From Oscillatoria sp. CS-180 (GTDB lineage: Bacteria; Cyanobacteriota; Cyanobacteriia; Phormidesmidales; Phormidesmidaceae): 64,000 nt of DNA. A model generated the notes under the pieces. It had not been told where the DNA came from, ran no database searches, and was given only the letters and a program-made list of their open reading frames with translations. Below, piece after piece: positions 4,255 to 49,445 of this stretch. Within the stretch, counting starts at the first letter, position 1, and the number at the start of each line of letters is the position of its first letter. The position numbers were made by a program, and so were the translations under genes. The stretch spans positions 1 through 64,000 of the forward strand of contig NZ_JAQMUB010000100.1 in the NCBI RefSeq assembly GCF_028330965.1, in the 5' to 3' direction.

Positions 4255-5079
4255 TCATTCTTCAGGCATGAGTCTTTCTTCAAAGTCTGGGGTTTCATCA
4301 TCAACTCCTTTGATGCCCAACCAAATCTCAATTCGTTCCAAACGGGCATCAACCATCCCACCCTGCAACTGCATGACCCTCATTGCCTGCTGAAAACCAC
4401 TGCCACGAAACACGACATACATCATTCCAGCGACGAATACTGAGCCCATACCAAACCAGAACAGGGCAGCTTTCCAGTTGGCGAGGTCAGTCCAGATCGA
4501 AGTTTCTTTTTTTGACTGGCCGGGAGCGATCATGCCCTTCTGCATCTGGCGTAAGGTTTGCTTCACGCCTTCCTGCATCTGCTGGTTGGCTGTTTTGACC
4601 TCCGCGATCGCTTGTAAGACTTCCTGTGTTTTCCACGGACTCATCGATGATTTTGGCGTCGAACCATCGCTTAAGTTCGGCGCTGCTTTCAAGAAATTGA
4701 GCAAAGGCTGCTCGACCCTGCTCAATGTCATCTCGGACATCATTAAGTAGTTGTTGAATTTCGCCAAGTGTTCGGTGAGTTGCATGTAGCTGCCGCTCAC
4801 CTCTTGGGTCGCTTGGGTCTTGAAGTGAAGGAGTTGGGCCAGCTCCTCCGTCACCGTCCGCCAGTGCGCCATGTCCGTTTGGTGATTCCTCTCGCATTGA
4901 TTGACATACTCCGTGAGTTCTCGAATTTGCCGTTCCACACTAATTTGCAGCCGATCAACGGTCTGTCCCACATCCCCAATGGCACGTGTAAGCGAGTCTT
5001 CTGGCGGCGAGAGTACTCTTTGTGAGGTGCCCCGACCGGGAGCCTTCCGGTCGGCACCATTCATAGCATCGTTGCTCAT
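4255..5079 (-). CDS. Membrane-anchored coiled-coil protein, StbC/TraM-like position
   Basis: This 274-residue protein has a long, heptad-like helical region (about residues 30-190, rich in Gln, Glu and Leu). One membrane segment follows near 205-230 (AALFWFGMGSVFVAGMMYVVF), then a short acidic tail. The start ATG overlaps the stop of the upstream ParA-like gene (ATGA), so the two are translationally coupled. It is the third gene of a trio (DNA-binding protein, ParA-like ATPase, this protein) whose order matches stbABC of R388 and traKLM of RP4. Sequence similarity to StbC or TraM is not evident by eye. The call rests on gene order and size, and the protein may tether the complex to the membrane. 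Confidence 0.7.
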   Translation of the reverse strand: MSNDAMNGADRKAPGRGTSQRVLSPPEDSLTRAIGDVGQTVDRLQISVERQIRELTEYVNQCERNHQTDMAHWRTVTEELAQLLHFKTQATQEVSGSYMQLTEHLAKFNNYLMMSEMTLSRVEQPLLNFLKAAPNLSDGSTPKSSMSPWKTQEVLQAIAEVKTANQQMQEGVKQTLRQMQKGMIAPGQSKKETSIWTDLANWKAALFWFGMGSVFVAGMMYVVFRGSGFQQAMRVMQLQGGMVDARLERIEIWLGIKGVDDETPDFEERLMPEE

Positions 5080-5861
5080 GCTGCCTCCGTTGCTCTGGCA
5101 ATGGGTTGCCCCTCAGCCTGGGGCTTTGGTAGCCCTAGATAGGAAGCCGCATAGTCCAACTCAGCTACCCCTCGCCGCAGGAACGACTGAGTGATGAGCC
5201 GATGCCCAACTGTCAACTTGGCGACATCAAAGAAATTAGTGCTGGGATGCATCTGCTGAAAAGTGAGTCGATCTAAAGCAGGCATGGCAATCTCGATGCC
5301 CTTCAGCGACTCAAACAACTTATAAGCTTCCGATTGCTCCCAAATCGCAAAACTACTCTCATCTGAACTGCTGCCGTCTTCCCAAAACTGATTCCGGACA
5401 GCCACATAGTCAGCGCGATCGCCGCAGAAGGCCATGACATCTTGAAAGGAGTGAACTGAGGGGGCACCAATATCTAAAACACAGACAAAGGTGAAGCGAT
5501 ACGGCATCTCCTTATCTTCACTCAGGTCCAGCAGGTTAAAGTGTTCCATGCGATCGCGGGTCTGGTGCCCGCTGGCCGCTGGCATATCAATCAGGGCCAC
5601 ATCGGGCTTCTTCTTCTCCAGCATTTCCAGCAGCTTGTGAGAGCCTTCAATTTCCAGAAGATTGCCCGTGTAGACCTGATATTTTTGCTGGGCGTGATAG
5701 TTAGCCAGCTCTGGGTTTTCGGTATCTGAGTCGAACCCAATTACCTTGACTCCGGCCTCGACCAGGGCGTAGTAAAGCAACCGGGCGAATAAAGTCTTAC
5801 CCGTCCCGCCCTTGCCAGGGACCAGCATAACGGCATGTTTTTGTTGGGTTGGGTTGGCCAT
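5076..5861 (-). CDS. ParA/MinD-like ATPase (StbB/TraL-type)
   Basis: The N-terminus carries a deviant Walker A, PGKGGTGKT (about residues 15-23), followed by GFDSDTENPE and DVALIDMPAA, the usual ParA/MinD/SIMIBI pattern. The start at 5861 (MANPTQQKHAV) is preferred because GAGGA lies 8 nt upstream. A longer TTG start at 5876 would overlap the previous gene. It lies second in the trio, directly after the DNA-binding protein and before the membrane coiled-coil protein. StbB (R388) and TraL (RP4) are ParA-like proteins in the same position and act in plasmid positioning and/or conjugation. Either role is possible here. Confidence 0.85.
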   Translation of the reverse strand: MANPTQQKHAVMLVPGKGGTGKTLFARLLYYALVEAGVKVIGFDSDTENPELANYHAQQKYQVYTGNLLEIEGSHKLLEMLEKKKPDVALIDMPAASGHQTRDRMEHFNLLDLSEDKEMPYRFTFVCVLDIGAPSVHSFQDVMAFCGDRADYVAVRNQFWEDGSSSDESSFAIWEQSEAYKLFESLKGIEIAMPALDRLTFQQMHPSTNFFDVAKLTVGHRLITQSFLRRGVAELDYAASYLGLPKPQAEGQPIARATEAA

Positions 5862-5872
5862 GAGTTGAATCC

Positions 5873-6484
5873 TCAAAGAGTTTTACAGTTTTCATATCCC
5901 GTCGTCGTTTTGGGATTCGTAACCTTCTTAAAACGGTCACGAAAGCGATTGGGGTGAAGGTCTTCAGTCGATGCTGCCTGCTGGGTTTCAGAGGAAGCTG
6001 GTGTGGATGGTTTATCAGTAACAGGCGCGATCACGGGCTCTGAGTTCGGCCCTACGGCGGGCGATCGCGCCACAGGTTCTGGCGCTGGGATAGGTGCTGG
6101 TGTTACGGCTGGGGCTACAGACGGTACAGTCTGGGCCGGAGCTGTAGCCGGAACATTAGATGTTCGGGAAGACGTGGAGGTAGAGCGAGATTTCAGCTTG
6201 AAAGGTGCAGCGGTAGAGTCTGATCGCGTCTTTTTTCGGGTGAGTTGGTAGTAGTAATAACGAACTGTATTTCCAGTGAGGCGAAGTTCTACCCCAAGTG
6301 ACTCCTGCACAATATCCCTGACGATTGTGGCGATAGTCTCCCAAGACATTTTCTTTTTTTTGGCCTTACGGATGGCTGGAAGACACTGCCTAACAGCCTC
6401 TATCGCCGAAATCTCCAGTTCTGCATCTTCAGGTAGGCTGTCAGCCTTCTCACTAAATAGTCTGCGTAAATCAACATCACTCAT
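5873..6484 (-). CDS. Putative DNA-binding stability/relaxosome protein (StbA/TraK-like)
   Basis: This 203-residue protein has an N-terminal helical domain (about 1-85) followed by a long Ser/Thr/Pro/Ala-rich, probably disordered tail. The helical part contains AIRKAKKKKMSWETIATIVR, then GVELRLTGNTVRYYYYQLTR. This resembles the 'LPxIRxxxxxGxSxxxIxxxL...tLRxYxxR' pattern of small plasmid DNA-binding proteins such as TraK. The ATG at 6484 has GAGGG about 9 nt upstream. The striking 12-bp repeat array begins 3 bp from this start codon and is the obvious candidate binding site. It is the first gene of the trio with the ParA-like ATPase and the membrane protein. Confidence 0.75.
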   Translation of the reverse strand: MSDVDLRRLFSEKADSLPEDAELEISAIEAVRQCLPAIRKAKKKKMSWETIATIVRDIVQESLGVELRLTGNTVRYYYYQLTRKKTRSDSTAAPFKLKSRSTSTSSRTSNVPATAPAQTVPSVAPAVTPAPIPAPEPVARSPAVGPNSEPVIAPVTDKPSTPASSETQQAASTEDLHPNRFRDRFKKVTNPKTTTGYENCKTL

Positions 6485-6486
6485 GA

Positions 6487-7080
6487 GCTAACCCTCAGCC
6501 TGCATAAATTGCTGACTACTAACCTGCTTCTACACCTGGATGAATACCTGCGAATATCCCTACCTTCCTGTTTCACAATCAGCCTGTCAGTTGCCCTGAC
6601 AAAAGACCTCACGGCAGACCTGATGAATCTATCTGTCAGTGGTTCTGAATAAACGCATGTATCGAGACCTGACGCACTTGCTGCTAATTTTCCTGACAGA
6701 TATCTTCACCACTGTGATGCCTTAGAACCTGACAATATGCCTCGCCCAAAATCTGACTTTTCTTCTGATTATTCACCGGCCCCGTCTCCTCACTCACTGC
6801 CTGGAAAACGGCCTGACGATATCTCTTCCTCCTGAACTGCTGGATTACCTGGCAGTCAACCTGCTCTTCTCCCTGCCAGCACAATTTCTATTTGACCTGG
6901 CAAATTTCCTTACCACAGGACTGCTCATAAACCTGACGATGGGGCTGCTGCGAAACATGACACCTCACCTACCTGCTGACCTGACCTGAAGCTGACAAAA
7001 TCTCTGCTGTTTCTCCTAACTGCGCTCCTCACCAGTGACCTGCGCGGCGTCCTGACGTTTCCCCTGCTCAGTGAGCTGAC
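6487..7080. repeat. 12-bp phased CCTGAC-type array, about 50 units (candidate centromere/transfer nucleoprotein site)
   Basis: A core reading CCTGAC or a near variant recurs every 12 bp from 6487 to 7075. The register is exact from 6487 to 6619. It slips +1 between 6619 and 6632, is exact again from 6632 to 6980, slips -1, and is exact from 6991 to 7075. Of about 50 register positions, 33 carry NCTG and most others differ by one base (CCTC, CCTA, CATG). The six bases between cores are not conserved. Examples of full CCTGAC are at 6595, 6668, 6692, 6728, 6812, 6932, 6980 and 7051. Stops and register slips argue against coding. R388 has phased 9-bp repeats bound by StbA at the same place relative to stbA. 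Confidence 0.9.
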
Positions 7081-7347
7081 TATTCCATTGCAATTTCCGC
7101 GATGGCAAGATGTGGCAGTTGTCGATCGTGGTCGTTCTTCACTCGGCGATGATCGCGATCGCTTTGACCACCAGGATGCTGACGGTAGTAACTGGCCGGT
7201 TGAATCGTTGTTTGTGCTTGCATACCGTTTCTCCGTGAGAGTGACCCAACAGCGATCGCGGTTTCTGGTCTGCGCCATCTGCAACTAACAACGCTTCAAA
7301 ACCATCAGTACAATGCGATCGCTGTTGGCTTTGGTTGGCATCGTATC
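7081..7347. other. Candidate oriT region
   Basis: This gene-free segment lies between the phased array and the MobC/relaxase operon, where oriT sits in R388 and RP4. On the minus strand it contains GCATCCTGG (7179-7171), which resembles the IncP-type nic consensus YATCCTGY. It lies 11 bp from the near-palindrome AACCGGCCAGTT (7201-7190). No other strong stem-loop was found. The nic assignment is a weak match, while the positional argument for oriT somewhere in 6490-7347 is stronger. Confidence 0.4.
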
Positions 7348-7372
7348 GGGCAGATATCCCTCAGATATCTCC
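7348..7372. promoter_or_regulatory. Transfer-operon element, copy 1 (inverted relative to the gene)
   Basis: GGGCAGATATCCC followed by TCAGATATCTCC lies 23 bp before the MobC-like gene. Its reverse complement matches the elements at 16750, 18663 and 33466. The adjoining bases CGTATC also match on the complementary strand (GATACG in copy 2). It is a probable operator or promoter element shared by the transfer genes. Confidence 0.65.
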
Positions 7373-7395: not shown

Positions 7396-7998
7396 ATGTC
7401 GCGTTTCGGATACAAACTGTTGCTGTTTAAGAAGGTCTGTGAAACGAGTAGCCAAGTCAGAGCAGATCGGCTAGAAGAAAACTATCTGCAACTTCAAAAC
7501 GCTCCTTCGACTCATCAGCACTTCCCTGGTTTGCGCGATCGCCCCCGATGGGTAGGTCGCGTTTTGTCTTTTTTACAAGCTTTTGAGGTGACTAAGGTGG
7601 CTCTGACAGGTAAAAGAAACCCACGAGTAACCGTAAGCTTTACCCCTGAAGAATTGGGGCTGATCAGCGGTCGCTGCGGGAATCAGATCTCGGCTTATCT
7701 AAAAGCGTTGGCGCTAGATGATATTGGCAGCGATGACACAACTTGTCGTCAGTTTTATGCGTTGGGGATGACTTTGAATGAAGCGTTATCGGTCGTCATT
7801 GATATCGCCAAAGATTCTAAAGGCCAGGTGCCCGACAAACTGGTCAATCAACTATCTACTTTACGCGAGGCCATGAAAGCTATGCAGCGGCAAGCTGTTA
7901 TGGAGCAATACATGGACATTCCTGAAATCCTGCGGCAGCTCCATGATGCTGTAGGAGGAAATCGGTTAGCCCAAAAGGAACAGGAAGGGTTTCTTTAG
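7396..7998 (+). CDS. MobC-like relaxosome accessory protein
   Basis: This 200-residue protein precedes the relaxase by two bases, so the two are co-translated. Its central part (RVTVSFTPEELGLISGRCG, then NQISAYLKALALD) has the strand-then-helices pattern of ribbon-helix-helix/MobC accessory proteins, where a beta strand contacts DNA at oriT. The C-terminal half is helical (LSTLREAMKAMQRQAV). MobC-type proteins help melt oriT and position the relaxase, and many also repress their own operon. The first 40-50 residues are poorly conserved-looking, and a later start is possible. The operon carries a copy of the shared transfer element upstream. Confidence 0.65.
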   Translation: MSRFGYKLLLFKKVCETSSQVRADRLEENYLQLQNAPSTHQHFPGLRDRPRWVGRVLSFLQAFEVTKVALTGKRNPRVTVSFTPEELGLISGRCGNQISAYLKALALDDIGSDDTTCRQFYALGMTLNEALSVVIDIAKDSKGQVPDKLVNQLSTLREAMKAMQRQAVMEQYMDIPEILRQLHDAVGGNRLAQKEQEGFL

Positions 7999-8000: not shown

Positions 8001-9215
8001 ATGCTCGTCAAGGTGACTAAAGGCAGTGATGCTTATGGCCTCTGTGCCTATGTACTCAACCCTGAGAAGCAGCCGCGATCACAGCAGTCCTCGACTGAAG
8101 AAGATGCAGTTCTGGCTTCTAATATGTTGGGTCAAACCGTAGAGGAACTAGCGCGAGAACTGGAATGGAGCGCTGAGGCTTCAAGGCGTAAACCCGTCCA
8201 GAAAATTGTGGCTCACTACTCAGTTAGTCTGACACCTGGAGAGCGGCTGACTCCTCAGCAGATGGGTACGGTATCGCGGCAACTACTCATGGAGATGGGT
8301 CATGAACGCTGTTCCTACTTCGCGGTGCAGCATCATGACCAGGAGCATAAACGCGGGGTGCAGCATTGGCATATCGTTACAGCCACGGTCAACACCACCA
8401 ATGAATGGGTTAATGACAGTTTCAGTCATCTGCGGCTCCGACAGGTGGAACGATCTCTAGAGCGACAGTTTGGCTTGGTGGCCTGTCCTGCAAGGCCAGT
8501 CGCTGAGCAGAGAAATCTCACCACCGGCGAGGCCAGACGGAAGGAGCGCACGGGTGAAGTCCTGCCCAAAGAAAAACTCTGGGCAACAATCGACGCAGCC
8601 ACAGCAGATAAGCCCACAATGGCGCTGCTGGTCACAAGGCTGAAGGCCCAGGATATCGAAATACGCCTCCGGCTCACGGGCGATCGCTACACAGGGATCA
8701 GCTTTGGAGTCGATGACTCTGCCTTTGCTGGAAGGCGATTAGGACGTGCCTACTCCTTTGAGGGTCTTCAGCAATATCGTTCGATTTATTACGACACGGC
8801 TCAAGACAGCACCTTGCAGCAGGTGGCGAATGCCAGTCCTGCTAAGTGTCAGCAAAAGCTGGCAGACTACGAGGAGTACCAACGAACGCTACGAGAGCTG
8901 TATGAACAGTACGCCCAGTCAGCTATCAGTGAACCAGGGCCAAGACGCGATCGCGCAGTTGCGATCGGGGCGATCACCGCAGGGTATTCCGAACAAGAGA
9001 CCATAGAAATTGTTCGGCAGGGCGACACGGCTCAGGCAGTGAGAGAAGAATTTGGGCAACGTGAGGAACTGGACTACTCTCAGCAAACTGTTCAAACCCA
9101 GATAGAGCTTTGGCAGCAGCAGGTTGAGCAATATCGCCTAGCCCAAGTCGAAGCTCAGGAAAAGCAAGAGCGTCAGCAGTTGCGGTTTAAAGGTCAGCAA
9201 TTTCATATCTTGTGA
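8001..9215 (+). CDS. Conjugative relaxase (MOBP-like, Relaxase/MobA family)
   Basis: The protein opens MLVKVTKGSDAYGLCAYVLN, the usual relaxase motif I layout with candidate nicking Tyr at Y17 (Y12 is an alternative). Motif III has a histidine cluster in VQHHDQEHKRGVQHWHIV (H111, H112, H116, H122, H124), the metal-binding set of this superfamily. A helical, Gln-rich C-terminal part (about 260-404) follows. At 404 residues it is a compact relaxase with no helicase or primase domain. It would nick oriT, stay covalently bound and be passed to the VirD4-like coupling protein at 30071. It follows the MobC-like gene directly and its 3' end overlaps the convergent initiator gene by 13 bp. Confidence 0.85.
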   Translation: MLVKVTKGSDAYGLCAYVLNPEKQPRSQQSSTEEDAVLASNMLGQTVEELARELEWSAEASRRKPVQKIVAHYSVSLTPGERLTPQQMGTVSRQLLMEMGHERCSYFAVQHHDQEHKRGVQHWHIVTATVNTTNEWVNDSFSHLRLRQVERSLERQFGLVACPARPVAEQRNLTTGEARRKERTGEVLPKEKLWATIDAATADKPTMALLVTRLKAQDIEIRLRLTGDRYTGISFGVDDSAFAGRRLGRAYSFEGLQQYRSIYYDTAQDSTLQQVANASPAKCQQKLADYEEYQRTLRELYEQYAQSAISEPGPRRDRAVAIGAITAGYSEQETIEIVRQGDTAQAVREEFGQREELDYSQQTVQTQIELWQQQVEQYRLAQVEAQEKQERQQLRFKGQQFHIL

Positions 9216-10309
9216 CTATCTCCACTAATTCGAATTTTGTCAGTATTAAGCTGAAATTCAACCAGCACACTGTTCTTTCTCTTCCCTGGTACTTCACAAG
9301 CATTCAGCAAAAACCCTTTTTCTTTTAGCTCTTCGACCGTTCGCCAGAAGATAGCGCTATTTCGGGATGTATTACTCCCAAACAAATCCAAATTTTTAAA
9401 TAAATGGCGTCTCGATATGGTTAGATATTGACCATCTTTTGGAGAATCCCACTTTAGTCGACTAGCTAAATATATTAATAGCTTCGTCCCATAGTTATGG
9501 TTGGCGCTACCTCCAACTCGCTGTTGCATGTCAATATTGCCAAAAAGCACGTAATCACCACCATCTGGTGTTGGTGTTTGAAAGAATTCCAAATTCACCA
9601 CGTATTCGTCTGCTGACCCGTAGGTATAGTCAGCTGCTTTGTCTGTATCAAAATCACGCTGCACATTGTCAACTTTAAATTTTTGAATACGCAGAATATT
9701 TTTGATAGTGACCTCAGCTACGACGCCATTAGCGGTCTCAGTTTCTTCAGCATAAACCAGCTCAGTTCTATGTAATGCCATTAGATCGCAATGAAGCTGA
9801 GATCTGATGTTTGCATGAAAGCCACCATCTTTAGTGCGGCTGTAGCCCATAACTTCTAACAGATCGTTCGAGCGAAATTTAGCTACAGGCCCAGTCTCAC
9901 AAACCGAGGCCGCTCTATAAAGATAAAGAACCAGTTCCACCTGTCGCGGATTTAGAAAGGTAAGCAGTGTTGCTGTTAACCGCCGAACCCGCATATCCTC
10001 AATTTTTTCTAAGCCTTTAATGCCTTTGCTTAAGTAAGCTTCTAGGTCGATATTGTCATACTGCTTCTTAAGTTCTTGCCATGCTTCTCTAGAAAGATCT
10101 TCCAAGGGGATCCGACGCGTTAGCCCAACCTCACTTATCTCTTCTGGATCCGCATCGACCCTCATCTCTAAATAATAACCGCCTGCATCTGCACGGAGAA
10201 TGGGCAGGTTAACATCAGGATTACGAAAGGAAGCGCCTGCACGAGGCAAGAGCCGAACAAGCTGACTATCAACTGCGAATAAATCAAGTTGCGCGCTTGA
10301 GTTGCCCAT
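9203..10309 (-). CDS. Plasmid replication initiator protein
   Basis: A 368-residue protein whose start lies next to an iteron array at 10378-10803. It shows two winged-helix-like blocks: residues about 120-200 (LNPRQVELVLYLYRAASV, then KFRSNDLLEVMGYSR) and about 275-350 (YGTKLLIYLASRLKW, then TISRRHLFKNLDLFG). This two-winged-helix layout is typical of iteron-binding initiators such as RepE/RepA/TrfA. It would bind the iterons, open the origin and recruit DnaB, and probably autoregulates. The assignment rests mainly on this layout and on the adjoining iterons. Confidence 0.75.
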   Translation of the reverse strand: MGNSSAQLDLFAVDSQLVRLLPRAGASFRNPDVNLPILRADAGGYYLEMRVDADPEEISEVGLTRRIPLEDLSREAWQELKKQYDNIDLEAYLSKGIKGLEKIEDMRVRRLTATLLTFLNPRQVELVLYLYRAASVCETGPVAKFRSNDLLEVMGYSRTKDGGFHANIRSQLHCDLMALHRTELVYAEETETANGVVAEVTIKNILRIQKFKVDNVQRDFDTDKAADYTYGSADEYVVNLEFFQTPTPDGGDYVLFGNIDMQQRVGGSANHNYGTKLLIYLASRLKWDSPKDGQYLTISRRHLFKNLDLFGSNTSRNSAIFWRTVEELKEKGFLLNACEVPGKRKNSVLVEFQLNTDKIRISGDSHKI

Positions 10310-10377: not shown

Positions 10378-10803
10378 CCTATCAATTTAGCGTACGTTTT
10401 TTAGTCAGTCTCCTATCAATTTAGCGTCAGGAATTGCCTATCATTTTGCCGTATGCGGTGAGTCGGTGCCTATCAATTTAGCGTCAGGAATTGCCTATCA
10501 TTTTGCCGTATGCAGTGAGTCGGTGCCTATCAATTTAGCCTCAGGAATTGCCTATCATTTTGCCGTATGCAGTGAATACTCCGAACAGCTCGTTTGTCTC
10601 TGGAAAGAGGTCTTAGCCAGTCTCCTATCAATTTAGCGTCAGGAATTGCCTATCATTTTGCCGTATGCGGTGAGTCGGTGCCTATCAATTTAGCGTCAGG
10701 AATTGCCTATCATTTTGCCGTATGCAGTGAGTCGGTGCCTATCAATTTAGCGTCAGGAATTGCCTATCATTTTACCGTATTCCTTGCCTATCACTTTGCC
10801 GTA
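10378..10803. repeat. oriV iterons: two alternating repeat types in two blocks
   Basis: Type A (CCTATCAATTTAGCGTCAG) starts at 10378, 10412, 10469, 10526, 10624, 10681 and 10738. Type B (CCTATCATTTTGCCGTATG) starts at 10437, 10494, 10551, 10649, 10706, 10763 (TTTACCG) and 10787 (CACTTTG). A and B alternate with 25 bp from A to B and 32 bp from B to A, giving a 57-bp unit. Three units form one block (10412-10590) and three form a second (10624-10790), 98 bp apart at corresponding A copies. A degenerate CCTATCA lies at 10853. The array sits beside the initiator gene and is the likely origin of vegetative replication. Confidence 0.92.
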
Positions 10804-16749: not shown

Positions 16750-16773
16750 GGAGATATCTGAGAGATATCTGCC
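16750..16773. promoter_or_regulatory. Transfer-operon element, copy 2
   Basis: GGAGATATCTGAG followed by AGATATCTGCC, then TGATACG, lies 38 bp before the preferred start of the gene at 16811. It is almost identical to the copy at 33466 and to the inverted copy at 7348. The two AGATATCT palindromes are spaced by one helical turn. This suggests a dimeric regulator bound in tandem. Confidence 0.7.
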
Positions 16774-16810
16774 TGATACGTTGCTGGAAAGATCCTTAAA
16801 AGGAGGATGT

Positions 16811-33465: not shown

Positions 33466-33490
33466 GGAGATATCTGAGAGATATCTGCCC
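33466..33490. promoter_or_regulatory. Transfer-operon element, copy 4
   Basis: GGAGATATCTGAG followed by AGATATCTGCCC, 34 bp before the start of the lytic protein gene. It matches the copy at 16750 in 24 positions and shows that the VirB1-like gene has its own promoter, controlled like the rest of the transfer genes. Confidence 0.7.
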
Positions 33491-33523
33491 TATAGCGTCT
33501 GGAAATGGATTTCGAGTTTTCCT

Positions 33524-38021: not shown

Positions 38022-39737
38022 TTACGGAATATCACTTGTAGCACGCTCTAACTCGACTAGTGAGCGATTGTAACCAACGATCGCTTGTACCAAATTGACT
38101 TCGGCATCGGTGAGCTCTGATTGAGCGTTTAAGATATCTAGTTGAGTGCCAACCCCAGCGTCAAACCGTAAGATTGCTAAGTCTAAGGCTTCTTGAGCCT
38201 GCTCAACGGCGATGGTGGCAGTATCGATATTGGTCAAGTTAGAGGTCAGTGTGTAATAAGCACTTTCAACTGCAAGTCTGATAGTGTTGCGGGTTTCCTC
38301 AAAATTTTGCCCTGAAATTGCGATATCCAGTTCACGCTGACGGGCTCTAGCCTGAGCAGCGCCACCTTCAAAGAGAGTCCAAGATGCCCGAACACCTAGC
38401 TGATAATCATCTGAGAAGCGACCATCCTGAGTGAGGGTGTCACTGACTTGATAATTTGCAAACAGGTCAACTTGCGGACCCAACGCGGCAAGTTCGACCC
38501 GTCGAAGTTGCTCGTTGATATCTCGCTGAATCAACTGTTGCTCTAGCTCCACCCGATTTTGATAGGCAGCGATGATGCTTTCTTCTAAGGTGAGAGGCCA
38601 ACTTCCAGAAAGTTGGACAGGCAATGTTGTGATGCTGAGAGACGGAGGGACATTGAGGCGACGCGCCAAACTTCGTTCGGCAACTTGACGCGCTCGTTCA
38701 GAGTTGACCAAATCCTGACGAGCATTTGCTACCTGTACCTCCGCGCGTAAAACATCAAAACGAGTTCCGACTCCGACTTCTTCGCGTAAGCGAGTGTCTC
38801 TGAGGTTCCGTTCTGCCTCTTCTAGAAAAGCCTGGCTGATGCGGATGGTTTCAATGGCAGCTTGGAGGTCATAATACTCGTTGGCAGTATTAAGTCTCAG
38901 CTCTTCTTGACGGCGCTCTACCTCTAACCCATTAAGTCGAACTTGTTCCTCAGCGGCACGAACAGAGGCCGCACGTCTCCCAGAGGAGTATAAGTTGTAG
39001 GCTACATCCAGCTGAGCAGAAAGCGCTACACCCAATTCTTCAGAGGTATTGCTTTGAAAAGTAACCCCTCCATCAGGCGTAGGAACTAGAGAAGAACTAC
39101 TCTGAGTTATGTTTTGTCCTTGTAAGGTACCGTTTACAGCAAAGGTAGGTAAGTAATCTGCCTGAGCTTCTCTGAGGGCTGCTTGACTTTGCTCTAGCTC
39201 TAATAGAGCAACTTGCAGATCAGGATTATTACGATAGGCAAGCTCAATGGCTTCCTCAAGACTAAGGGGCTGTATTCCAATAATTTCAACTTCTTCAGGT
39301 CGAGTTTGAATAAGTAGTGGGTTTGGCTCGGGTTCAAGACGCTGAAGCGAATCAGATGCTCCATTTTCCTGTTCTAAAGGTGGTCTGGTGACGGGATTAG
39401 AGGGTGAAATCTGTTGAGAACCATCATCCCGATCGCCATTAGCATCAGATCCAGGTAAAGGGATAAAAGGTCCAGCGTCTAAAGGCTCTGTAGATTCTGC
39501 AGGAATCGCCTGACTCACGGATGTGGACACAGCCGCAAATGTTTCTTCAGGAGAAAGACTATTTGCTTTTTTCAACTTTTCAGCAGATTCGGGCACTAAA
39601 GAAGTCTGGACAAGTTGATGAGAATTAGAGGTTGCTTCGGCGGGAATGCTCCATCCCGTAATTATTGAGAATGGCAAAGCTATCGCCATGCCCCACTTAA
39701 GGCGAACTAGCCATTGAAAATACATACCTTGCTGCAT
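38022..39737 (-). CDS. TolC-family outer-membrane efflux protein
   Basis: Two repeats of the outer-membrane factor pattern: SLEEAIELAYRNNPDLQVAL, LEQSQAALREAQADYLPTFA, EVGVGTRFDVLRAEVQVANA, then TLEESIIAAYQNRVELEQQL and DAGVGTQLDILNAQSELTDA. The N-terminal 140 residues are a signal segment plus a Ser/Glu/Pro-rich linker, longer than in E. coli TolC. Start ATG 39737 is used (39725 or 39785 are possible). It provides the outer-membrane exit for the RND pump encoded at 53261, although the two are 13 kb apart. It is the last gene of a minus-strand unit that begins at 40644 and is preceded by a copy of the copper-island box. Confidence 0.9.
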   Translation of the reverse strand: MQQGMYFQWLVRLKWGMAIALPFSIITGWSIPAEATSNSHQLVQTSLVPESAEKLKKANSLSPEETFAAVSTSVSQAIPAESTEPLDAGPFIPLPGSDANGDRDDGSQQISPSNPVTRPPLEQENGASDSLQRLEPEPNPLLIQTRPEEVEIIGIQPLSLEEAIELAYRNNPDLQVALLELEQSQAALREAQADYLPTFAVNGTLQGQNITQSSSSLVPTPDGGVTFQSNTSEELGVALSAQLDVAYNLYSSGRRAASVRAAEEQVRLNGLEVERRQEELRLNTANEYYDLQAAIETIRISQAFLEEAERNLRDTRLREEVGVGTRFDVLRAEVQVANARQDLVNSERARQVAERSLARRLNVPPSLSITTLPVQLSGSWPLTLEESIIAAYQNRVELEQQLIQRDINEQLRRVELAALGPQVDLFANYQVSDTLTQDGRFSDDYQLGVRASWTLFEGGAAQARARQRELDIAISGQNFEETRNTIRLAVESAYYTLTSNLTNIDTATIAVEQAQEALDLAILRFDAGVGTQLDILNAQSELTDAEVNLVQAIVGYNRSLVELERATSDIP

Positions 39738-39921
39738 ACAAAATTTCAAAAGATAGACGATGAAGACTACAGCCGAAGAGGACACTCTAAAGAGCCGAAA
39801 ATTTCCACCTAAAAATCTAGGCTTATTTGCAAAGCTAGGAGAGTAAAATTTTCAGAACTCGTCAATTTCTCTTTCCAGGATTTGAATTATCTTCTCGTAC
39901 CTAGGAGAGAACCTGAAAGAT

Positions 39922-40212
39922 TTAAGGAGTCTTTTTGCGCTTGCGCACGGGTGATTGTAGCCACATCAGAAACCCACTAATAACCAATGTCAAGAGTCCC
40001 AGTGCATTGAGAATAGGGTAAATAAAGTCCAAATTGAGTTGACCAAATTTGCCTCGATGCAGCTCTAAAAGCCAGAGAAAGTCGTTGGCGCGATCGCTCG
40101 CAACTGCAAATTGAAACAGGACTCCTGTCGTCAGGGTCAGCAGTAATGGCAATACCATCACGGGCACTAACGCAGTATGTAACTGACGTAAACGAGCACG
40201 ATTAATGTTCAT
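39922..40212 (-). CDS. PepSY-associated membrane-helix protein
   Basis: A 96-residue protein with two hydrophobic segments (HTALVPVMVLPLLLTLTTGV and ILNALGLLTLVISGFLMWLQ). The N-terminal Arg-Gln-Leu-His lead is typical of the transmembrane helix part of PepSY_TM proteins, which often occur in metal uptake and resistance loci. It ends in a basic tail (SPVRKRKKTP). The upstream gene stops 15 bp away, so they are co-transcribed. Confidence 0.65.
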   Translation of the reverse strand: MNINRARLRQLHTALVPVMVLPLLLTLTTGVLFQFAVASDRANDFLWLLELHRGKFGQLNLDFIYPILNALGLLTLVISGFLMWLQSPVRKRKKTP

Positions 40213-40227
40213 TGCTAAGTCAATAGT

Positions 40228-40644
40228 TTACGAAGACTGTAGCTGTTTCTTTAGGTACTGCAGCAGGAATGGCCCAACAACAATTAGAGCGAATAATGAT
40301 TCCCCTAAACCAATTCCAATGGCACCCACGTTAGCCTGAAGTAATGAAGAAGATGGCTCTTCCGAGGTGACAGGCACTTCTTCAACAGGAGATGCATCGG
40401 CATCAGTGCTCATCGGCATCTCCGCTGATGGCATAACCGTTCCATCGGAATGGGTCATGCCATCGGTATGCTCAGAGGAACTTTCAGCTGAATCACCTTC
40501 AGACGAAGGTTCCGCTGGCTCTATGCTTTGAGAGTCGTGCGGACCAGCGTGGCCTATTGCATTCTCAACCCACAGCAGGTGAGTCGCGATCGCAGTTCCT
40601 CCCCCTACCAAAACCTTACGATGCTGCTTCGTCCAATGAGCCAT
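40228..40644 (-). CDS. Small His/Met/Ser-rich membrane protein
   Basis: The protein has an N-terminal hydrophobic segment (VLVGGGTAIATHLLWVENAI), then about 75 residues rich in Ser, Glu and scattered His and Met (HTDGMTHSDGTVMPSAEMPM), and a C-terminal membrane segment (SLFALIVVGPFLLQYL). His and Met outside the cytoplasm suggest weak copper binding; this is inferred from composition and neighbours. It is the first gene of the unit with the PepSY-type protein and TolC. Confidence 0.55.
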   Translation of the reverse strand: MAHWTKQHRKVLVGGGTAIATHLLWVENAIGHAGPHDSQSIEPAEPSSEGDSAESSSEHTDGMTHSDGTVMPSAEMPMSTDADASPVEEVPVTSEEPSSSLLQANVGAIGIGLGESLFALIVVGPFLLQYLKKQLQSS

Positions 40645-40761
40645 ACCGCTTAATCTCCTACACCTCTACAAAAGAAAGCTTCACAAATAGATTACACATC
40701 ATTGCGAAGCATTGCGAAACACTGATTATTTCGCTGTCAATGGCAGTTTGCCATCTGAAGA

Positions 40762-40778
40762 TGAAATCAGGGTGAAAT
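40762..40778 (-). promoter_or_regulatory. Copper-island direct-repeat box 1
   Basis: On the minus strand ATTTCACCCTGATTTCA: two ATTTCA halves 11 bp apart. It lies 118 bp before the His/Met-rich gene at 40644 and faces it. Direct repeats at 11 bp are typical of OmpR-type response-regulator sites. Confidence 0.65.
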
Positions 40779-41048
40779 AGAAACTGGATTTTGTTCACTA
40801 GGCATTATCGCCTTAACTAGCTGCACAGGCTTTTAGCTGGCTGGTTCCAACGCAAGCGCCTCCGAGATTTTTGCATACCCTTTGCACTAACGATGAAAAT
40901 AGTTCAGATGATCTATCTATGGAGCGTGCTGACAACGCCGTTGAGCATGGCCTAGACAAATGCCTGGAGGATCCCTAAGGCAAGCAGAAAACAGAGCCTG
41001 TAACGAATCCAGCTATTCAGAGAAAAACCAGGCGTCTCAGATTTTCTC

Positions 41049-41073
41049 ATTTCACTCTGATTTCACTATTTCA
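41049..41073 (+). promoter_or_regulatory. Copper-island direct-repeat box 2 (copA promoter)
   Basis: ATTTCACTCTGATTTCA with a third ATTTCA 8 bp after the second, 84 bp before the copA start. It is the copy with the most half-sites and is paired back-to-back with box 1. The 510-bp gap 40645-41157 holds no other feature I can support. Confidence 0.7.
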
Positions 41074-41157
41074 GAATATTCTGCTTAGTTGAACGCTGGA
41101 GGCGGAAGCCCGAAGCGCTAAAACCTTTATTTAACTAAGTCATAAGGCGATACACAC

Positions 41158-43044
41158 ATGGCTTTTCTGAATCGACGTAGTTTTCTGCGCTTTACGGCAG
41201 GCGCAGGCTTGGGTTTTGGGTTGCATACGCTTCTACCAGCCTATGCAAGGCAGGGGATATCCCTTGGCCAAGCTAGCCAAGGTATGAATTATCCTGATGT
41301 AATCGATCTCCAGGTGCAGGAAACAGCCATTCAACTGGGTGAACGGAGCGCAAAGGCTCTGACCATAAACGGTTCCGTTCCGGGTCCATTGATTCGCCTG
41401 CGAGAAGGCCAAAACATTTCCATTAATGTTACCAACCAACTCGACCGAGATACTTCCATCCACTGGCACGGCATTATCCTGCCGCCTGAGATGGATGGTG
41501 TACCTGGAGTCAGTTTTGCTGGCGTTAAGCCAGGGCAGACGTTTACATATCAGTTTCCGATCACCCAGAGTGGTACCTATTGGTATCACAGCCACAGCGG
41601 ATTACAGGAACAACAAGGGCACTTCGGGCCAATCATCATCGATCCAGCCGAACCAGAACCCTTCGAGTACGACCAAGATTATGTGGTGATGCTTTCCGAC
41701 TGGACGTTTGAAGATCCCCATAGCGTTTTGGCTAATCTGAAACGCATGTCTCCTTACTACAACTACCAAAGGCGGACAGTAGCCAACCTGGCTGAGGACG
41801 GGGAATGGAGACAGATGCGTATGGATCCGACGGATATCGCAGATGTCACTGGCGCGACCTATACCTATCTGATGAATGGGATTGAGCCAGATGCCAACTG
41901 GACAGCCTTGTTTCAGCCAGGAGAAAAGGTTCGGCTGCGATTTATCAATGCTGCTGCGATGACCTATTTTGATGTGCGCATTCCTGGCCTCAAAATGACC
42001 GTTGTCCAAGCAGACGGGCAAAATGTACAACCCGTAGCCGTCGATGAATTCAGAATTGCCGTAGCCGAAACCTACGACGTTATTGTGGAGCCCCAAGACG
42101 AACAGGCTTATACAATCTTTGCTGAAACGATGGATCGCAGCGGTTATGCTCGCGGCACTCTAGCTATTCGTACAGGGTTAGAAGCCCCTCTGCCAGAACG
42201 ACGCGAACGGCCACTACGGACGATGGCCGATATGGGGATGGATCATGGTTCGATGGGTGCCGATGCGCCAGCGATGGACCACGATATGTCTTGCATGAGC
42301 GGCGATGCTCCAATGAATCACGACATGAGCGGCATGAGCGGCGATGCGCCGATGAACCACGACATGAGCGGCATGAGTGATGATGCGCCGATGAATCACG
42401 ACATGAGTGGCATGAGTGATGATGCGCCGATGAATCACGACATGAGCGGCATGAGTGGCGATGCTCCAATGAACCACGACATGTCCTGTCCAGGCGGCAG
42501 TTCAATGGTTCCTCATGGCCCAGATAGCCACGGTGCGGGAAATTCTGGTACTCCTATGATGGTAGGCAGTCGTATGCATGAACCAGGAACCGGTCTAGAA
42601 AATACTGGAACTCGTGTTTTGGTTTATACCGACTTGCGCAGCATCAACCCAGGATATGACCCGCGATCGCCAGAACGAGAAATAGAGTTGCACCTCACCG
42701 GCAACATGGAGCGATACATGTGGTCTTTTGACGGTAAAAAATACTCTGAAGAAAAAGAACTTACCTTCTATGATGGCGAACGCCTGCGGCTGGTTTTTGT
42801 CAATGACACCATGATGGAACACCCCGTTCACCTACACGGTATGTGGATGGAAGTAGACAATGGTGCAGGACAATACAAACCTCGCAAACACACAGTCAAC
42901 GTTAAGCCAGCCGAAAGATTTCCTGTAGAGATTAATGTCGACGCTCCTGGTAGATGGGCTTTTCACTGCCATCTGCTTTATCACATGGAAGTTGGTATGT
43001 TCCGCACCGTAGCGGTTATTGACCGTCCATCGGAGGTAGGCTAG
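41158..43044 (+). CDS. copA: CopA-type multicopper oxidase
   Basis: A Tat-type signal (NRRSFLRF) leads a three-domain multicopper oxidase. Copper ligands are seen in SIHWHGIIL, YWYHSHSGLQEQQG, HPVHLHGMW and FHCHLLYHMEVGM, so all four His clusters are present. Between the second and third domains lies a Met-His-rich insert made of 13-residue repeats (DAPMNHDMSGMSG), typical of CopA/PcoA. It oxidises or sequesters periplasmic Cu(I). It is followed directly by CopB and preceded by box 2, so the pair is probably induced by copper. Confidence 0.93.
   Translation: MAFLNRRSFLRFTAGAGLGFGLHTLLPAYARQGISLGQASQGMNYPDVIDLQVQETAIQLGERSAKALTINGSVPGPLIRLREGQNISINVTNQLDRDTSIHWHGIILPPEMDGVPGVSFAGVKPGQTFTYQFPITQSGTYWYHSHSGLQEQQGHFGPIIIDPAEPEPFEYDQDYVVMLSDWTFEDPHSVLANLKRMSPYYNYQRRTVANLAEDGEWRQMRMDPTDIADVTGATYTYLMNGIEPDANWTALFQPGEKVRLRFINAAAMTYFDVRIPGLKMTVVQADGQNVQPVAVDEFRIAVAETYDVIVEPQDEQAYTIFAETMDRSGYARGTLAIRTGLEAPLPERRERPLRTMADMGMDHGSMGADAPAMDHDMSCMSGDAPMNHDMSGMSGDAPMNHDMSGMSDDAPMNHDMSGMSDDAPMNHDMSGMSGDAPMNHDMSCPGGSSMVPHGPDSHGAGNSGTPMMVGSRMHEPGTGLENTGTRVLVYTDLRSINPGYDPRSPEREIELHLTGNMERYMWSFDGKKYSEEKELTFYDGERLRLVFVNDTMMEHPVHLHGMWMEVDNGAGQYKPRKHTVNVKPAERFPVEINVDAPGRWAFHCHLLYHMEVGMFRTVAVIDRPSEVG
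42262..42489 (+). repeat. 39-bp tandem repeats inside copA
   Basis: About six units of 39 bp encode DAPMNHDMSGMSG with small changes (SDDAPM, SCMSG). Unit number is likely to vary by slippage, and this would tune the number of Met/His copper ligands. Confidence 0.8.
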
Positions 43045-44142
43045 ATGCGGAACATATTTCAACGAAAATTATTTTTGGTTCTAGCAACATCAATTGGACT
43101 CGCAGGTGTTGTAGGCTTATCGCCTCAAATCGTAAAAGCCCAAAGTGCCAACGATAGTGCGATGAACCACGACATGGGCAGTCCTGCTGTTTCAGAGGAG
43201 CCAGGTGCAAGTACGGCAGCGGCTGTACCCCACGATATGAGTGGTACGAGCGACGATGCTTTAATGCCTCATGACATGAGTGGCATGAGTGGTGATGCTC
43301 CAATGGACCACGACATGAGTAGCCCTGCTGTTTCAGAGGAGCCAGGTACAAGTGCAGTAGCGACTGTGCCTCACGACATGAGCAGCTCTGCCGCCCAATT
43401 ATTGGAAGCCGATAACGCTTCACAGCAACCTCCGTCATTAGGACAATCTAATGTTTCGGAAGTCAACAGAGATGAATGGCCTGAACCTGTAGAAGACAGC
43501 CAGATTTTCTCGTATTTTTTAATCGATCAGTTGGAATACCGACTAAACGAGGGGGAAGATACGTTGAACTTGAATGGGATTGGTTGGATCGGGGGCGACT
43601 ATCAAAGACTTTGGATCAAAGCGGAAGGTGATATTGGTATAAACAGTGGCGATGGAGAGGCAGAGCTACAGCTTCTATACGGCAGGCTAATTGCTCCTTT
43701 TTGGGATTTTCAAGCAGGAATTCGATATGACCAAGTGTATAGCTCTGAAGGCGGTCCTGGGCGGGCTTTTGGAGTGCTTGGAATTCAAGGATTAGCACCC
43801 TATCAGTTTGAAGTAGAGGGTGCCTTATTTGTCAGTCAAGAAGGAGATGTTTCGGCTAGGTTCGCTGCTGAGTATCCGCTACTTTTGACCCAGCGACTTG
43901 TCCTACAACCCGAATTTGAAACCAATATCGCGATCCAGCGGGTAGAAGAGTTTGGCGTCGGTTCAGGTCTGAATGACATTGAGTTAGGCTTACGCCTACG
44001 TTACGAAGTCAATCGCAGATTTGCGCCCTATGTAGGAATCAACTGGACACAAAAGTTTGGTGAGACAGCAGATTTTGCCAGAGAGGAAGAAGAAGAAGTC
44101 AGCAATTTTGCCGTCTTAGGAGGTTTTAGGCTGCTCTTCTAG
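43045..44142 (+). CDS. copB: CopB-type outer-membrane copper resistance protein
   Basis: A signal peptide (ends in VKAQS) is followed by about 90 residues of Met-His-rich linker with the same HDMSGMSGDAPM-type motif as in CopA. The beta-barrel CopB domain follows: WPEPVEDSQIFSYFLIDQLE, WIGGDYQRLWIKAEGD, AELQLLYGRLIAPFWDFQAG, FEVEGALFVSQEGDVSARFA and RFAPYVGINWTQKFG. CopB binds or exports copper at the outer membrane with CopA. The start is one base after the copA stop, and the coding ends overlap the convergent gene at 44139 by 4 bp. Confidence 0.92.
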   Translation: MRNIFQRKLFLVLATSIGLAGVVGLSPQIVKAQSANDSAMNHDMGSPAVSEEPGASTAAAVPHDMSGTSDDALMPHDMSGMSGDAPMDHDMSSPAVSEEPGTSAVATVPHDMSSSAAQLLEADNASQQPPSLGQSNVSEVNRDEWPEPVEDSQIFSYFLIDQLEYRLNEGEDTLNLNGIGWIGGDYQRLWIKAEGDIGINSGDGEAELQLLYGRLIAPFWDFQAGIRYDQVYSSEGGPGRAFGVLGIQGLAPYQFEVEGALFVSQEGDVSARFAAEYPLLLTQRLVLQPEFETNIAIQRVEEFGVGSGLNDIELGLRLRYEVNRRFAPYVGINWTQKFGETADFAREEEEEVSNFAVLGGFRLLF

Positions 44143-44519
44143 GAAGCCGTGGCTTTCGGCGTGAGGGCAACAATGCCGCCAATAATCCCTAGGGTACTGG
44201 CAAGCAGTCCTCCCATTCCCAAAAACAGGTTCAGAATTGAAACAATCAGAATCGTCGTGCCCAGCGATCGCTGATATCTGGGAAGGAAGTAAAGGGCGAT
44301 CTCGCTGACGATGACGATAGCCCCTGCCAGCGGACCAAACCAGGGCCACCACAGTCCAAACTGGCCCATCATGCCTCGTCCCCACGTCATGTGGCCCATC
44401 CCCCAGCTTCCATCCATTGGCATGCGGCCAAAGCCGCCATATATCATGCGGCCCGAGGCCAGCATCCACAACCCCCCAATCAGGGACAGCACAAAAGCAA
44501 CAAGAGTGCGTTGAATCAT
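44139..44519 (-). CDS. Small membrane protein, 126 aa
   Basis: Four hydrophobic segments, with a Gly/Met/Trp-rich loop between the first two (RMPMDGSWGMGHMTWGRGMM) that could bind copper. It is a compact four-helix membrane protein of unknown family, similar in size to DUF4064/DUF6114-type proteins. It is convergent with copB. Confidence 0.6.
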   Translation of the reverse strand: MIQRTLVAFVLSLIGGLWMLASGRMIYGGFGRMPMDGSWGMGHMTWGRGMMGQFGLWWPWFGPLAGAIVIVSEIALYFLPRYQRSLGTTILIVSILNLFLGMGGLLASTLGIIGGIVALTPKATAS

Positions 44520-44764
44520 TTGGCTTCTCCTTACGGTTTCACGGTTTAATCATGAAAATTCAGCTGTCATGGGCGATCGCGAATCGCCCCGTGCTATTGG
44601 CGTCTAGGCTGATATAGCTGTGCCAACGCAGAGATAAACTCCACCAAAATAAAGTTCTCGAAAGTCAACTTCCGTTAGATAATGCCTAATGGATTCCTAG
44701 GGATGCCTATCGGCTAAATCCTCAGTGACGCCAAAGGGGCGAGAAATGGTCACAAAGAGCTGCA

Positions 44765-45175
44765 CTAGCCAGGTCGGCCGTTTTCTGGAAACTTCAGGTC
44801 TAAAATTACAAAGTGCTTGTTCTCAGACAGCGCCTGTGCGCTCTGTCGAATGACTTGGTCATACTCTGGAATCAGCGTGATAGCAAAGGTTGATAGCACG
44901 CCATCGACTCGGCTGGGATACTCGTATCGCGTCGCATCCATCGGCACAAGTTCTACATTTGACCATTGATGCTGCTCGACCCGACGAGCCGCCTGCTGTA
45001 GCATTTCAGGCGTTAGGTCAACTCCGATAATCTTGCCGCGATCGCCGACCGCCTCGTGTAGCAAACTGAAGTTTAAGCCAGTACCGCAGCCAATTTCGAC
45101 CACCGTATCGCCAGGGCTAAGCTGCAGTGCCTGCACTGCCTGCTGGCGATAGGCCCATTCTCGAAAACCAAGCAA
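44765..45175 (-). CDS. Class I SAM-dependent methyltransferase (start unresolved)
   Basis: SAM-binding motif VVEIGCGTGLNFSLL and IIGVDLTPEMLQQA (motifs I and II) followed by VLSTFAITLIPEYD identify a UbiE-like methyltransferase. The first open start is TTG 45175 (LLGFREWAYRQQ). The same frame is coding for at least 24 codons upstream (EIQEIYHRRARNYDLTANLY), a usual N-terminus of this family. A ribosome-binding site GGGAGGTG lies at 45261-45268, but no ATG, GTG or TTG follows in frame. The gene may begin at a rare codon or carry a small lesion. The protein as given is shorter than usual (about 200). Confidence 0.7.
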   Translation of the reverse strand: MLGFREWAYRQQAVQALQLSPGDTVVEIGCGTGLNFSLLHEAVGDRGKIIGVDLTPEMLQQAARRVEQHQWSNVELVPMDATRYEYPSRVDGVLSTFAITLIPEYDQVIRQSAQALSENKHFVILDLKFPENGRPG

Positions 45176-45394
45176 ATAGTAAAGATTAGCCGTCAGGTCA
45201 TAATTTCGAGCCCGTCGATGATAGATCTCCTGAATTTCCTGCTGGGTAAAAGCTATATCACACCTCCCGAGAGATACAATTCAGCAGTGGCCATCATTTA
45301 GATCGTCGGATATATCCCTCATGGGTGCAGTTAGCTACACGATTGGGTGAGAGTGCTGACTGGAAAAAATTTAGCAATCAGGTCTAACAGCACA

Positions 45395-45670
45395 CTATCG
45401 CTGGCTAATACCCGCTGCAAGCAAGGCTTCGCGAGAAATGGGTTGTTGAGGGTAACAACAGTCAGCTAAAGTCCCGTCAATTACGACGGCGGGCACTCGG
45501 TGGACGCCATATCGGGTTAATTTTTCTCGCCCCTCCTGAGTGATAAACTCTGACCGCAAGTCCCAAATTTGAACATTACAGTCATCACTCGCGATGTCTC
45601 GCACTAGCTTGACGGTCTTATCACAGAGGGGGCAACCAGCAGTAAAGACTTCTACGAGATGCTGGGCCAT
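45395..45670 (-). CDS. Glutaredoxin/thioredoxin-like thiol protein
   Basis: A 91-residue thioredoxin-fold protein with a CPLC motif (C13, C16) in VFTAGCPLCDK, a cis-Pro in HRVPAVVIDG and an extra Cys pair (DCCYP). Such small redox proteins appear in metal-resistance clusters and may handle thiol-bound metal. It has its own promoter-like sequence with a 20-bp spacer (45728-45697). Confidence 0.75.
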   Translation of the reverse strand: MAQHLVEVFTAGCPLCDKTVKLVRDIASDDCNVQIWDLRSEFITQEGREKLTRYGVHRVPAVVIDGTLADCCYPQQPISREALLAAGISQR

Positions 45671-45696
45671 TACGACACCTTTGAAAGCTTACTTTC

Positions 45697-45728
45697 AGCC
45701 TAGGGACTATGGTTTGCTGTAGGGTCTA
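45697..45728 (-). promoter_or_regulatory. MerR-type promoter candidate for the thiol protein
   Basis: On the minus strand TAGACC, then 20 bp, then TAGGCT. The long spacer and the identical -10 (TAGGCT) are also seen at 49446 before the merR-like gene. The -35 is only four of six to consensus and no good dyad was found in the spacer, so this is tentative. Confidence 0.35.
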
Positions 45729-45892
45729 GAGGGTGTTCATAAATCTTTGGTAATGTCATCTGAAGCTACACTTTTGATCCTACAGCTAACGATAGAGGCT
45801 AACCTGTTAGCAGACAGGATTGCGAGGTAGTTTCATAAGCCTCTGGGCCAGCTACCTACAATCCCCGGCAAGATTCATGGTTGAGGGGTCTA

Positions 45893-46284
45893 ATGCCATT
45901 CGCTCTTGGTGTTGCCCTGGCAGGTTTGGCAGGTTTTCTTCTTCATTTTCATTGGTGCCGTCTCAACCGAGATTGGATGTATATGCTGTGGCCTTTGTAG
46001 CGATCGGAGCGGTCTATGTCGGCTCAGCGCTGGCTGAGAAACGAGGGCGGAGCATTTTGCTGGAGACAGAGATCGCGATCGCCTGCATCGCTCTAGCTCC
46101 CATTGGTCTCTGGGTATCCCCCTTGGCACTAATCGCAGGCTACATTCTGCACGGGATTTGGGATTTCTTTCACCATCCCGTTCACGTTGGTGCGCAGATT
46201 ACCCAGCGTTGGTATCCGCCGTTGTGCGTCGGGTTTGACTGGGCGATCGCACTCATCATCACCCTCCAATACAGTTTGGGATGA
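45893..46284 (+). pseudogene. DUF6010-like membrane protein with a frameshift
   Basis: The expected N-terminus, MPFALGVALAGLAGF, then LLHFHWCRLNRDWMY, starts at ATG 45893 with GAGGGG upstream, but ends at a TAG after about 35 codons. The rest (VAIGAVYVGSALAEKR, ILLETEIAIACIALAPIGLW, GYILHGIWDFFHHP, YPPLCVGFDWAIALI) lies in another frame, in the open frame starting 45820. Read together they give the usual DUF6010 order. A single indel near 45980-46000 explains the break, either a real frameshift or a sequencing error. Confidence 0.55.
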
Positions 46285-46296
46285 GCCGACCGATGG

Positions 46297-46902: not shown

Positions 46903-46951
46903 AGATTGGACGAGAGTGACAGTTTCAAAGCGTTGTCAAAGTTGACGCGGG

Positions 46952-47794: not shown

Positions 47795-47808
47795 AAGGTC
47801 TCGTCAGT

Positions 47809-48321: not shown

Positions 48322-48448
48322 AAATACCTTTTCAACTGTTCGGTATAACAGCTTAGCGCTTGGGTGAGGACACAACTGCTGCCAGCACCCTGATAACGAC
48401 CAACATAGGGCTCATATCTTATCGGATGATTATTTGCTTGGGCTACTC

Positions 48449-49357: not shown

Positions 49358-49401
49358 AGAGTGACAAAACTACTTCAACCAAGCACCATGACAGACAATG
49401 A

Positions 49402-49418
49402 TGAAATGGGAGTGAAAA
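49402..49418 (-). promoter_or_regulatory. Copper-island direct-repeat box 3
   Basis: On the minus strand TTTTCACTCCCATTTCA: TTTCA halves 11 bp apart, 45 bp before the exosortase gene. The first half-site has T for A at its first base, making it the weakest of the six copies. Confidence 0.5.
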
Positions 49419-49445
49419 ATCGTCATGGCTATTTGTCGTCCCCTC

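Follow-up and report, generated by a model that had tools for sequence, protein, structure and literature searches.

RP4 TraK is reported to shape the DNA at oriT, thereby aiding nicking and transfer, and, among TubR-tubC systems, a 12-bp repeat is present on pBtoxis. In the R388 report (PMC3098194), StbA is described as binding repeats named stbDRs, which are arranged as two sets of five and through which it affects both plasmid stability and transfer; the same text terms TraK a StbA homologue and places its binding between nic and traK. TraD of NAH7, which is likewise homologous to StbA, covers its own operon's promoter within the oriT region according to PMC12421886, and centromeres are described as mostly tandem repeats in PMC7762940.

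Application of a chained motif model to the StbA genes of R388, R46, NAH7 and one P. aeruginosa plasmid revealed arrays of 10 to 16 units with an 11-bp step, R388 having 14 units by this model and the NAH7 array being located in the oriT region. An 11-bp comb was also obtained for Aquincola (0/400 shuffles as high), and no clear array was found at R751 traK or in X. phaseoli and Photobacterium, for which equally high combs arose in 41, 38 and 57 out of 400 shuffles, respectively. Considering that StbA plasmids carry such arrays, the array described below is not by itself the new type of partition or relaxosome site that the first-pass annotation had proposed.

The window, i.e. the entire stretch of 64,000 nucleotides that was analysed, belongs to a contig of 109,905 bp which ends without overlap. 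Genes for a T4SS coupling protein and for a TrbI-like protein (the latter falling below its Pfam cut-off) are present on this contig, which is therefore probably a conjugative plasmid. The array is situated between two divergent gene groups, with the genes for a DNA-binding protein (DBP), a ParA-like ATPase and a third protein directed leftward, and a gene in the mobC position and a relaxase gene directed rightward:

4255 to 5079, minus strand: third protein, 274 aa, with a hydrophobic segment at residues 206-224 (hydropathy 1.85)
5076 to 5876, minus strand: ParA/TraL/StbB-like ATPase with KGGTGKT (PF01656, E 3.7e-7, over the cut-off)
5873 to 6484, minus strand: DBP, 203 aa, putatively array-binding, with an N-terminal DNA-binding domain (DBD), a Pro/Ala/Ser-rich linker and a conserved C-terminal tail by sequence comparison
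5876 to 5959, minus strand: conserved tail of the DBP, last 28 residues (88-89% identity to L003, L004 and L040)
6227 to 6484, minus strand: DBD of the DBP, residues 1-86, by predicted model
6486 to 7083, minus strand: array of 49-50 direct units, 12-bp step, consensus GTCAGG (autocorrelation and chained motif model)
7105 to 7115, minus strand: nic-like motif CCACATCTTGC (CAC..CTTGC), putative nick region
7396 to 7998, plus strand: MobC-position gene, divergent from the trio; related genes occupy this position in L003 and L040
8001 to 9215, plus strand: relaxase, MobA/VirD2-like (PF03432, E 4.9e-23)

The KGGTGKT of the ATPase is invariant across seven related sequences, and its match to the NCBIfam TraL model (E 1.6e-4, 21 bits) is far under the 360-bit cut-off of that model. 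The third protein, whose relatives have a hydrophobic segment with a hydropathy of 1.79-1.94, is likened to StbC/TraM by gene position alone. The MobC-position gene has no Pfam match reaching its cut-off, and the relaxase, which is probably of class MOBP, matches NCBIfam TraI/MobA(P) at E 3.8e-10, under the cut-off. The resemblance of the trio to StbABC/TraKLM, noticed in the first-pass annotation, is thus upheld by the KGGTGKT of the ATPase, the hydrophobic segment of the third protein and the relation of the DBD to the StbA family (see below).

Various other elements were observed in the window. An element with GAGATATCTGAGAGATATCTG, located at 7338-7372 before mobC, recurs on the other strand at 16750-16784 and 33466-33494, and may act as a common operator for transfer genes. 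Tandem repeats of 57 bp form two blocks (10412-10575 and 10624-10780) beside an ORF of 368 aa (9203-10309), likely an iteron replication origin, and in locus L040 57-bp blocks likewise adjoin a 368-aa ORF. A link between the array and these iterons (10412-10780, with five plus-strand GTCAGG) was considered and rejected, since the L040 iteron consensus, as judged by eye, is without the AGTGCG core of the L040 array, and the GTCAGG present in the window iterons was therefore treated as chance. A protein of 954 aa (104-2968) has a caspase-like domain (PF00656) fused to a DEAD/DEAH helicase, the latter part being similar to the defence helicases HamB, and genes for an outer membrane efflux protein, a multicopper oxidase and an AcrB-family pump at 38022-56437 are probably metal-resistance cargo.

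Autocorrelation of positions 6485-7090 gave z scores of 6.7, 8.1, 6.5, 6.4 and 6.3 at lags 12, 24, 36, 48 and 60, respectively, with z above 4 at no further lag in the scanned range of 1-60 (compared with 1000 dinucleotide shuffles), which bears out the 12-bp period anticipated from inspection of the sequence. The first version of the chained motif model placed 49 minus-strand units from 7082 down to 6495, of which 46 of the 48 steps are of 12 bp, one of 11 and one of 13 (chain score 280, the highest of 30 shuffles reaching 85), and the second version extended the array to 6486, with 50 units and 47 of 49 steps of 12 bp. The approximately 50 register positions and the two 1-bp slips that had been annotated were thereby recovered, the slips being found close to the places given, as a 13-bp step between 6639 and 6626 and an 11-bp step between 6998 and 6987.

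The annotated CCTGAC core corresponds to the consensus, written here as GTCAGG, this being its sense on the coding strand of the adjacent DBP, yet the core is looser than this wording implies: among 49 units, 8 match it at 6/6 positions, 15 at 5/6, 16 at 4/6, 9 at 3/6 and one at 1/6, with the A kept in 96% of units. Stops occur 4 to 18 times per frame in the six frames, and the array is non-coding. A dimeric 24-bp unit was also considered, as the peak at lag 24 exceeds that at lag 12, but was rejected on the basis of a unit-order permutation (lag 2, p 0.73). The corresponding permutation for L003, a close relative described below, showed lags 5 and 7 to be slightly raised (p 0.012 and 0.036; 8 lags).

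No second copy of the array DNA was found in its own genome. The best six-unit combs of the same core elsewhere on the contig scored 17.8 (step 11, at 16984, where a repeat is not obvious by eye) and 13.2 (step 12, at 46491), compared to about 40 for the array, one shuffle having reached 10.4 with the six-unit comb of step 12. Alignment of the window array with that of L003, whose register is perfect, revealed two indels, of 1 and 73 bases, while substitutions amount to 19/258 in core columns 3-8 and 27/258 in the other columns (p 0.28), or to 9/172 in columns 5-8 versus 37/344 in the rest (p 0.048, these columns having been picked afterwards). These values give weak support to the selection on a short core alone that had been proposed in the first-pass annotation.

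ParA searches, a part of the matches of which was re-examined, yielded 11 close-clade loci including the window. The array recurs before these close homologues, strongly in 10 of the 11 loci (14-75 units) and weakly in the eleventh, L033. Units were counted downstream of the nic-like motif, and each strong array scores over its 5 shuffles:

Window: 50 units, step 12 bp, core GTCAGG
L003: 44 units, step 12 bp (43/43 exact), core GTCAGG
L040: 46 units, step 12 bp, core AGTGC (AGTGCG)
L004: 14 units, step 11/12 bp, core GTCAAGG
L041: 62 units, step 10/13 bp, core GTTGA
L042: 34 units, step 10-13 bp, core AGTC
L043: 29 units, step 11/13 bp, core GGTGA
L044: 75 units, step mostly 10-12 bp, core ACTGAA
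L045: 59 units, step mostly 10-12 bp, core ACTGAA
L046: 44 units, step 10/13 bp, core AGTCTA

A Fourier test beat shuffles in 8 of these 10 loci (L003 and L004 being the exceptions, and the periods for L041 and L044 falling outside 10-13); the claim of an array is carried by the autocorrelation and comb tests. In L033, a weak 11.5-bp comb was detected (0/400 shuffles as high, the start of the region being hand-chosen), the short region was negative, and no chain scored above shuffles.

CAC..CTTGC, which is the candidate nick region of oriT as judged from sequence, is present exactly once per intergenic region in 10/10 strong-array loci. A single copy also lies close to the array region of L033, and none of the six Nostocales loci has the motif. 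The first unit, as placed by the chain model, lies 20-23 bp past this motif in nine of the ten strong-array loci, and 0 bp past it in L045. The window array starts approximately 22 bp past the motif and ends at the start of the DBP operon.

A strong array is absent from the six Nostocales loci (L034-L039), for which 27, 3, 344, 134, 2 and 0 of 400 shuffles, respectively, gave combs as high; weak combs were thus obtained for L035, L038 and L039, that of L039 being broad over 10.5-12.5. Since a clear array is also missing at R751, X. phaseoli and Photobacterium, the array appears dispensable for the module. Four of the Nostocales loci (L034, L035, L036 and L038), which lack a strong array, contain between mobC and the DBP gene a TTGCTTGCC motif preceded by a stretch resembling an inverted repeat, an arrangement that may represent a different oriT design for the same trio. 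No clear array was found in the best two windows of each of nine distant cyanobacterial loci (L047-L055), nor a strong one in a further 21 loci drawn from 388 genomes, of which loci 12 had a recognisable upstream gene, the weak 12/24/36 signals of L080-L082 being inseparable from the coding period. Among the papers listed in searches of a library of CC-licensed PMC articles, none was recognised as describing such arrays in cyanobacteria, subscription journals being mostly outside this scope.

For the DBP no Pfam match was found at E 0.1, and NCBIfam matches are only at chance level (E 0.13 or worse). An AlphaFold model of its DBD (mean pLDDT 76) predicts helices at residues 27-33, 35-43, 48-63 and 71-83; fold searches with this model returned no significant match, and did not return 7pc1, the solved domain of StbA. 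In a single hhalign comparison, a profile of 11 DBPs matched the N-terminal domains of eight StbA/TraK-position proteins at E 6.3e-6 (probability 85%), the controls (one reversed and 15 column-shuffled) giving E 0.07-0.98. The DBD profile gave E 1.2e-4 versus the four closest StbA proteins alone, and matched neither R751 TraK (E 0.065) nor R46 StbA (E 0.12) as single proteins. By profile similarity, the N-terminal domain of the DBP is a remote relative of the StbA family.

Across the close clade the step is conserved and the core is not: the core changes with the DBD, whereas ParA (86-92%) and the tail (88-89%) stay. The window and L003 share 95% identity in the DBD and 89% in the tail, and their arrays cross-match in both directions (z 15.3). 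Cross-matching is absent versus L040 (z -0.1 and -0.4; DBD 33%, tail 88%, ParA 86%) and versus L004 (z 0.2 and -0.6; DBD 28%, tail 89%, ParA 92%). For the 10 arrays, DBD identity and array cross-matching show a Spearman correlation of 0.66 (1/5000 matrix permutations as high), a correlation partly confounded by kinship and based on z scores from 12 shuffles each. Despite unrelated DBDs, one-way cross-matches were found for the L042 motif on L004 (z 16.0) and for the L040 motif on L043 (z 10.5).

Contig G044:C7, perhaps a plasmid cointegrate, holds two mob/trio modules, L042 and L043, approximately 155 kb apart, with identities of 96% for ParA, 90% for the third protein, 88% for the relaxase and 60% for the DBP, and with arrays that do not cross-match (z 2.0 and -0.8). 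Their DNA is 86-90% identical from the relaxase to just beyond the nic-like motif, and the only part without similarity comprises the array together with the initial 96 bp of the DBP gene, after which the alignment resumes. DNA similarity is also gone across most of the array for L041/L046 and L042/L044, a short in-array match is retained for L042/L046, and for L044/L045 and window/L003 the DNA aligns right through the array. The gap is wider, with mobC included, for window/L040 and window/L004.

It is possible, though somewhat less likely than not, that these arrays are bacterial centromere-like satellites in which the helical step is fixed and core and reading domain are replaced together, sister plasmids and co-resident modules being without cross-talk; the same tentative reading would have largely separate specificities operating on a shared ATPase, tail and relaxase. 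If true, the arrays would parallel, in bacteria, the rapid evolution of centromeres, some members (L041 and L043) having higher-order repeats and others (the window, L003 and L040) old arrays that are scrambled and locked in register. The clade provides natural matched protein/array pairs on related ATPases (cores GTCAGG, AGTGCG, GTCAAGG, GTTGA, GGTGA, AGTC and ACTGAA), with which two questions become testable, namely the assembly of StbA-like complexes on phased sites and the diversification of centromeres to escape incompatibility.

By analogy with StbA systems, we consider it probable that the array serves the StbA-like protein encoded next to it as a binding platform, with the nick region of oriT on one side and the DBP gene on the other. 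The best reading is that of an oversized StbA-type centromere/relaxosome site with a 12-bp step, the specificity of which turns over in the lineage. The N-terminal domain of the DBP would read one core per 12-bp unit in constant direction, so that about 50 molecules would coat approximately 600 bp head to tail; if one protomer is bound per unit, a 12-bp step on 10.5-bp DNA corresponds, by arithmetic only, to a rotation of about 51 degrees per unit, one superhelical turn taking about 7 units. A single docking peptide would in this way be displayed many times over, by the conserved tails on their flexible linkers, to a partner that is itself conserved. This partner is most likely the ParA/TraL-like ATPase, via which the membrane-anchored third protein would be reached. 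Of the parts of the DBP, the tail is the likeliest to touch the ATPase, since its conservation, as observed from sequence in four loci, accompanies that of the ATPase and not that of the DBD. Core and DBD would evolve as a matched pair, with step, tail and ATPase being held. As for R388 StbA, the complex probably has two jobs, i.e. plasmid positioning/partition and control of the start of transfer by the neighbouring relaxase.

A site serving only the relaxosome, at which the protein shapes oriT DNA for nicking and transfer without any role in vertical stability, would account for the nic-like motif and relaxase adjoining the array in all strong-array loci, and for the coupling protein gene on the contig. 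We nevertheless judge it unlikely, as a search for ParB_N genes gave nothing on the contig, which is not closed (PF02195 matches being present only on contigs C34, C40 and C79), leaving the trio as the sole partition candidate seen there; moreover, R388 StbA affects stability according to PMC3098194, and a clear array is absent at R751 traK. Slightly less plausible again is a centromere for segregation only, whose place beside relaxase genes would be historical: a ParA-like ATPase combined with many phased sites fits this explanation, as does the statement in PMC7762940 that tandem repeats make up most centromeres, but the rigid 20-23 bp to the nic-like motif in 9/10 loci and the conserved linkage to relaxase genes both suggest a connection with transfer. 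That the array is merely an extended operator with which the DBP represses its own operon is improbable, even though it abuts the DBP start and NAH7 TraD covers its promoter (PMC12421886), since approximately 600 bp far exceeds what repression needs and a promoter scan was at chance level (2 found, 1.5 expected).

A functionless satellite arising from slippage, to which the tandem growth in L041 (period 23/92) and L043 (24/48) might point, is scarcely credible given that window units resemble their neighbours no more closely than they do in permuted order (lag 1, p 0.98 for a permutation value at least as high), that all 43 steps of L003 are exact and that DBD and core change jointly. The lack of extra similarity between neighbours indicates that the 12-bp period is no relic of recent duplication, and, taken together with the array going unreported by Tandem Repeats Finder, that the register has outlasted the similarity expected from duplication.

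Under the preferred reading of a StbA-type platform, the locus can be compared with four known systems. ParABS shares a ParA-type ATPase and a DNA site, and differs in that no ParB_N gene was found on the window contig and in having few parS sites as opposed to many short phased ones. TubR-tubC resembles the locus in its repeats upstream of the gene for the binding protein and, for two plasmids, in an extended filament (PMC7762940), while its motor is tubulin-like. In IncP TraKLM (RP4 and R751), as in the window, the gene for a MOBP-type relaxase points away from a trio whose ATPase is of KGG type; this system is unlike the window in that a clear array is absent at R751 traK, with R751 TraK alone not matching the DBD profile. 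The StbA-stbDR systems of R388, R46 and NAH7 have in common with it a three-gene operon, for a small DBD protein, a ParA-like ATPase and a third product, that adjoins oriT and relaxase genes, as well as an upstream direct-repeat array in a single orientation and a related DBD. They differ in that R388-type arrays have 10-16 units at 11 bp and are associated with MOBF, as compared to 49-50 units at 12 bp and a MobA/VirD2-like relaxase in the window; the R388 stbDR type, moreover, consists of the 9-bp TTGCATCAT with 2-bp spacers, in contrast to the 12-bp step and GTCAGG of the window, and R388 StbB has the motif SGXXGK (PMC3098194) as opposed to KGGTGKT. The array occupies the position of the R388 stbDRs, as had been annotated, with a larger size (49-50 versus 14 units) and a different step. 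With a StbA-family DBD, an adjacent KGGXXK[T/S]-type ATPase, upstream direct repeats and an operon beside relaxase genes and an oriT suggested by the nic-like motif, the locus has the features of a StbABC-type system, and plasmids of cyanobacteria would join the StbA class of partition/transfer systems, their arrays reaching several times the size of those in R388-type plasmids.
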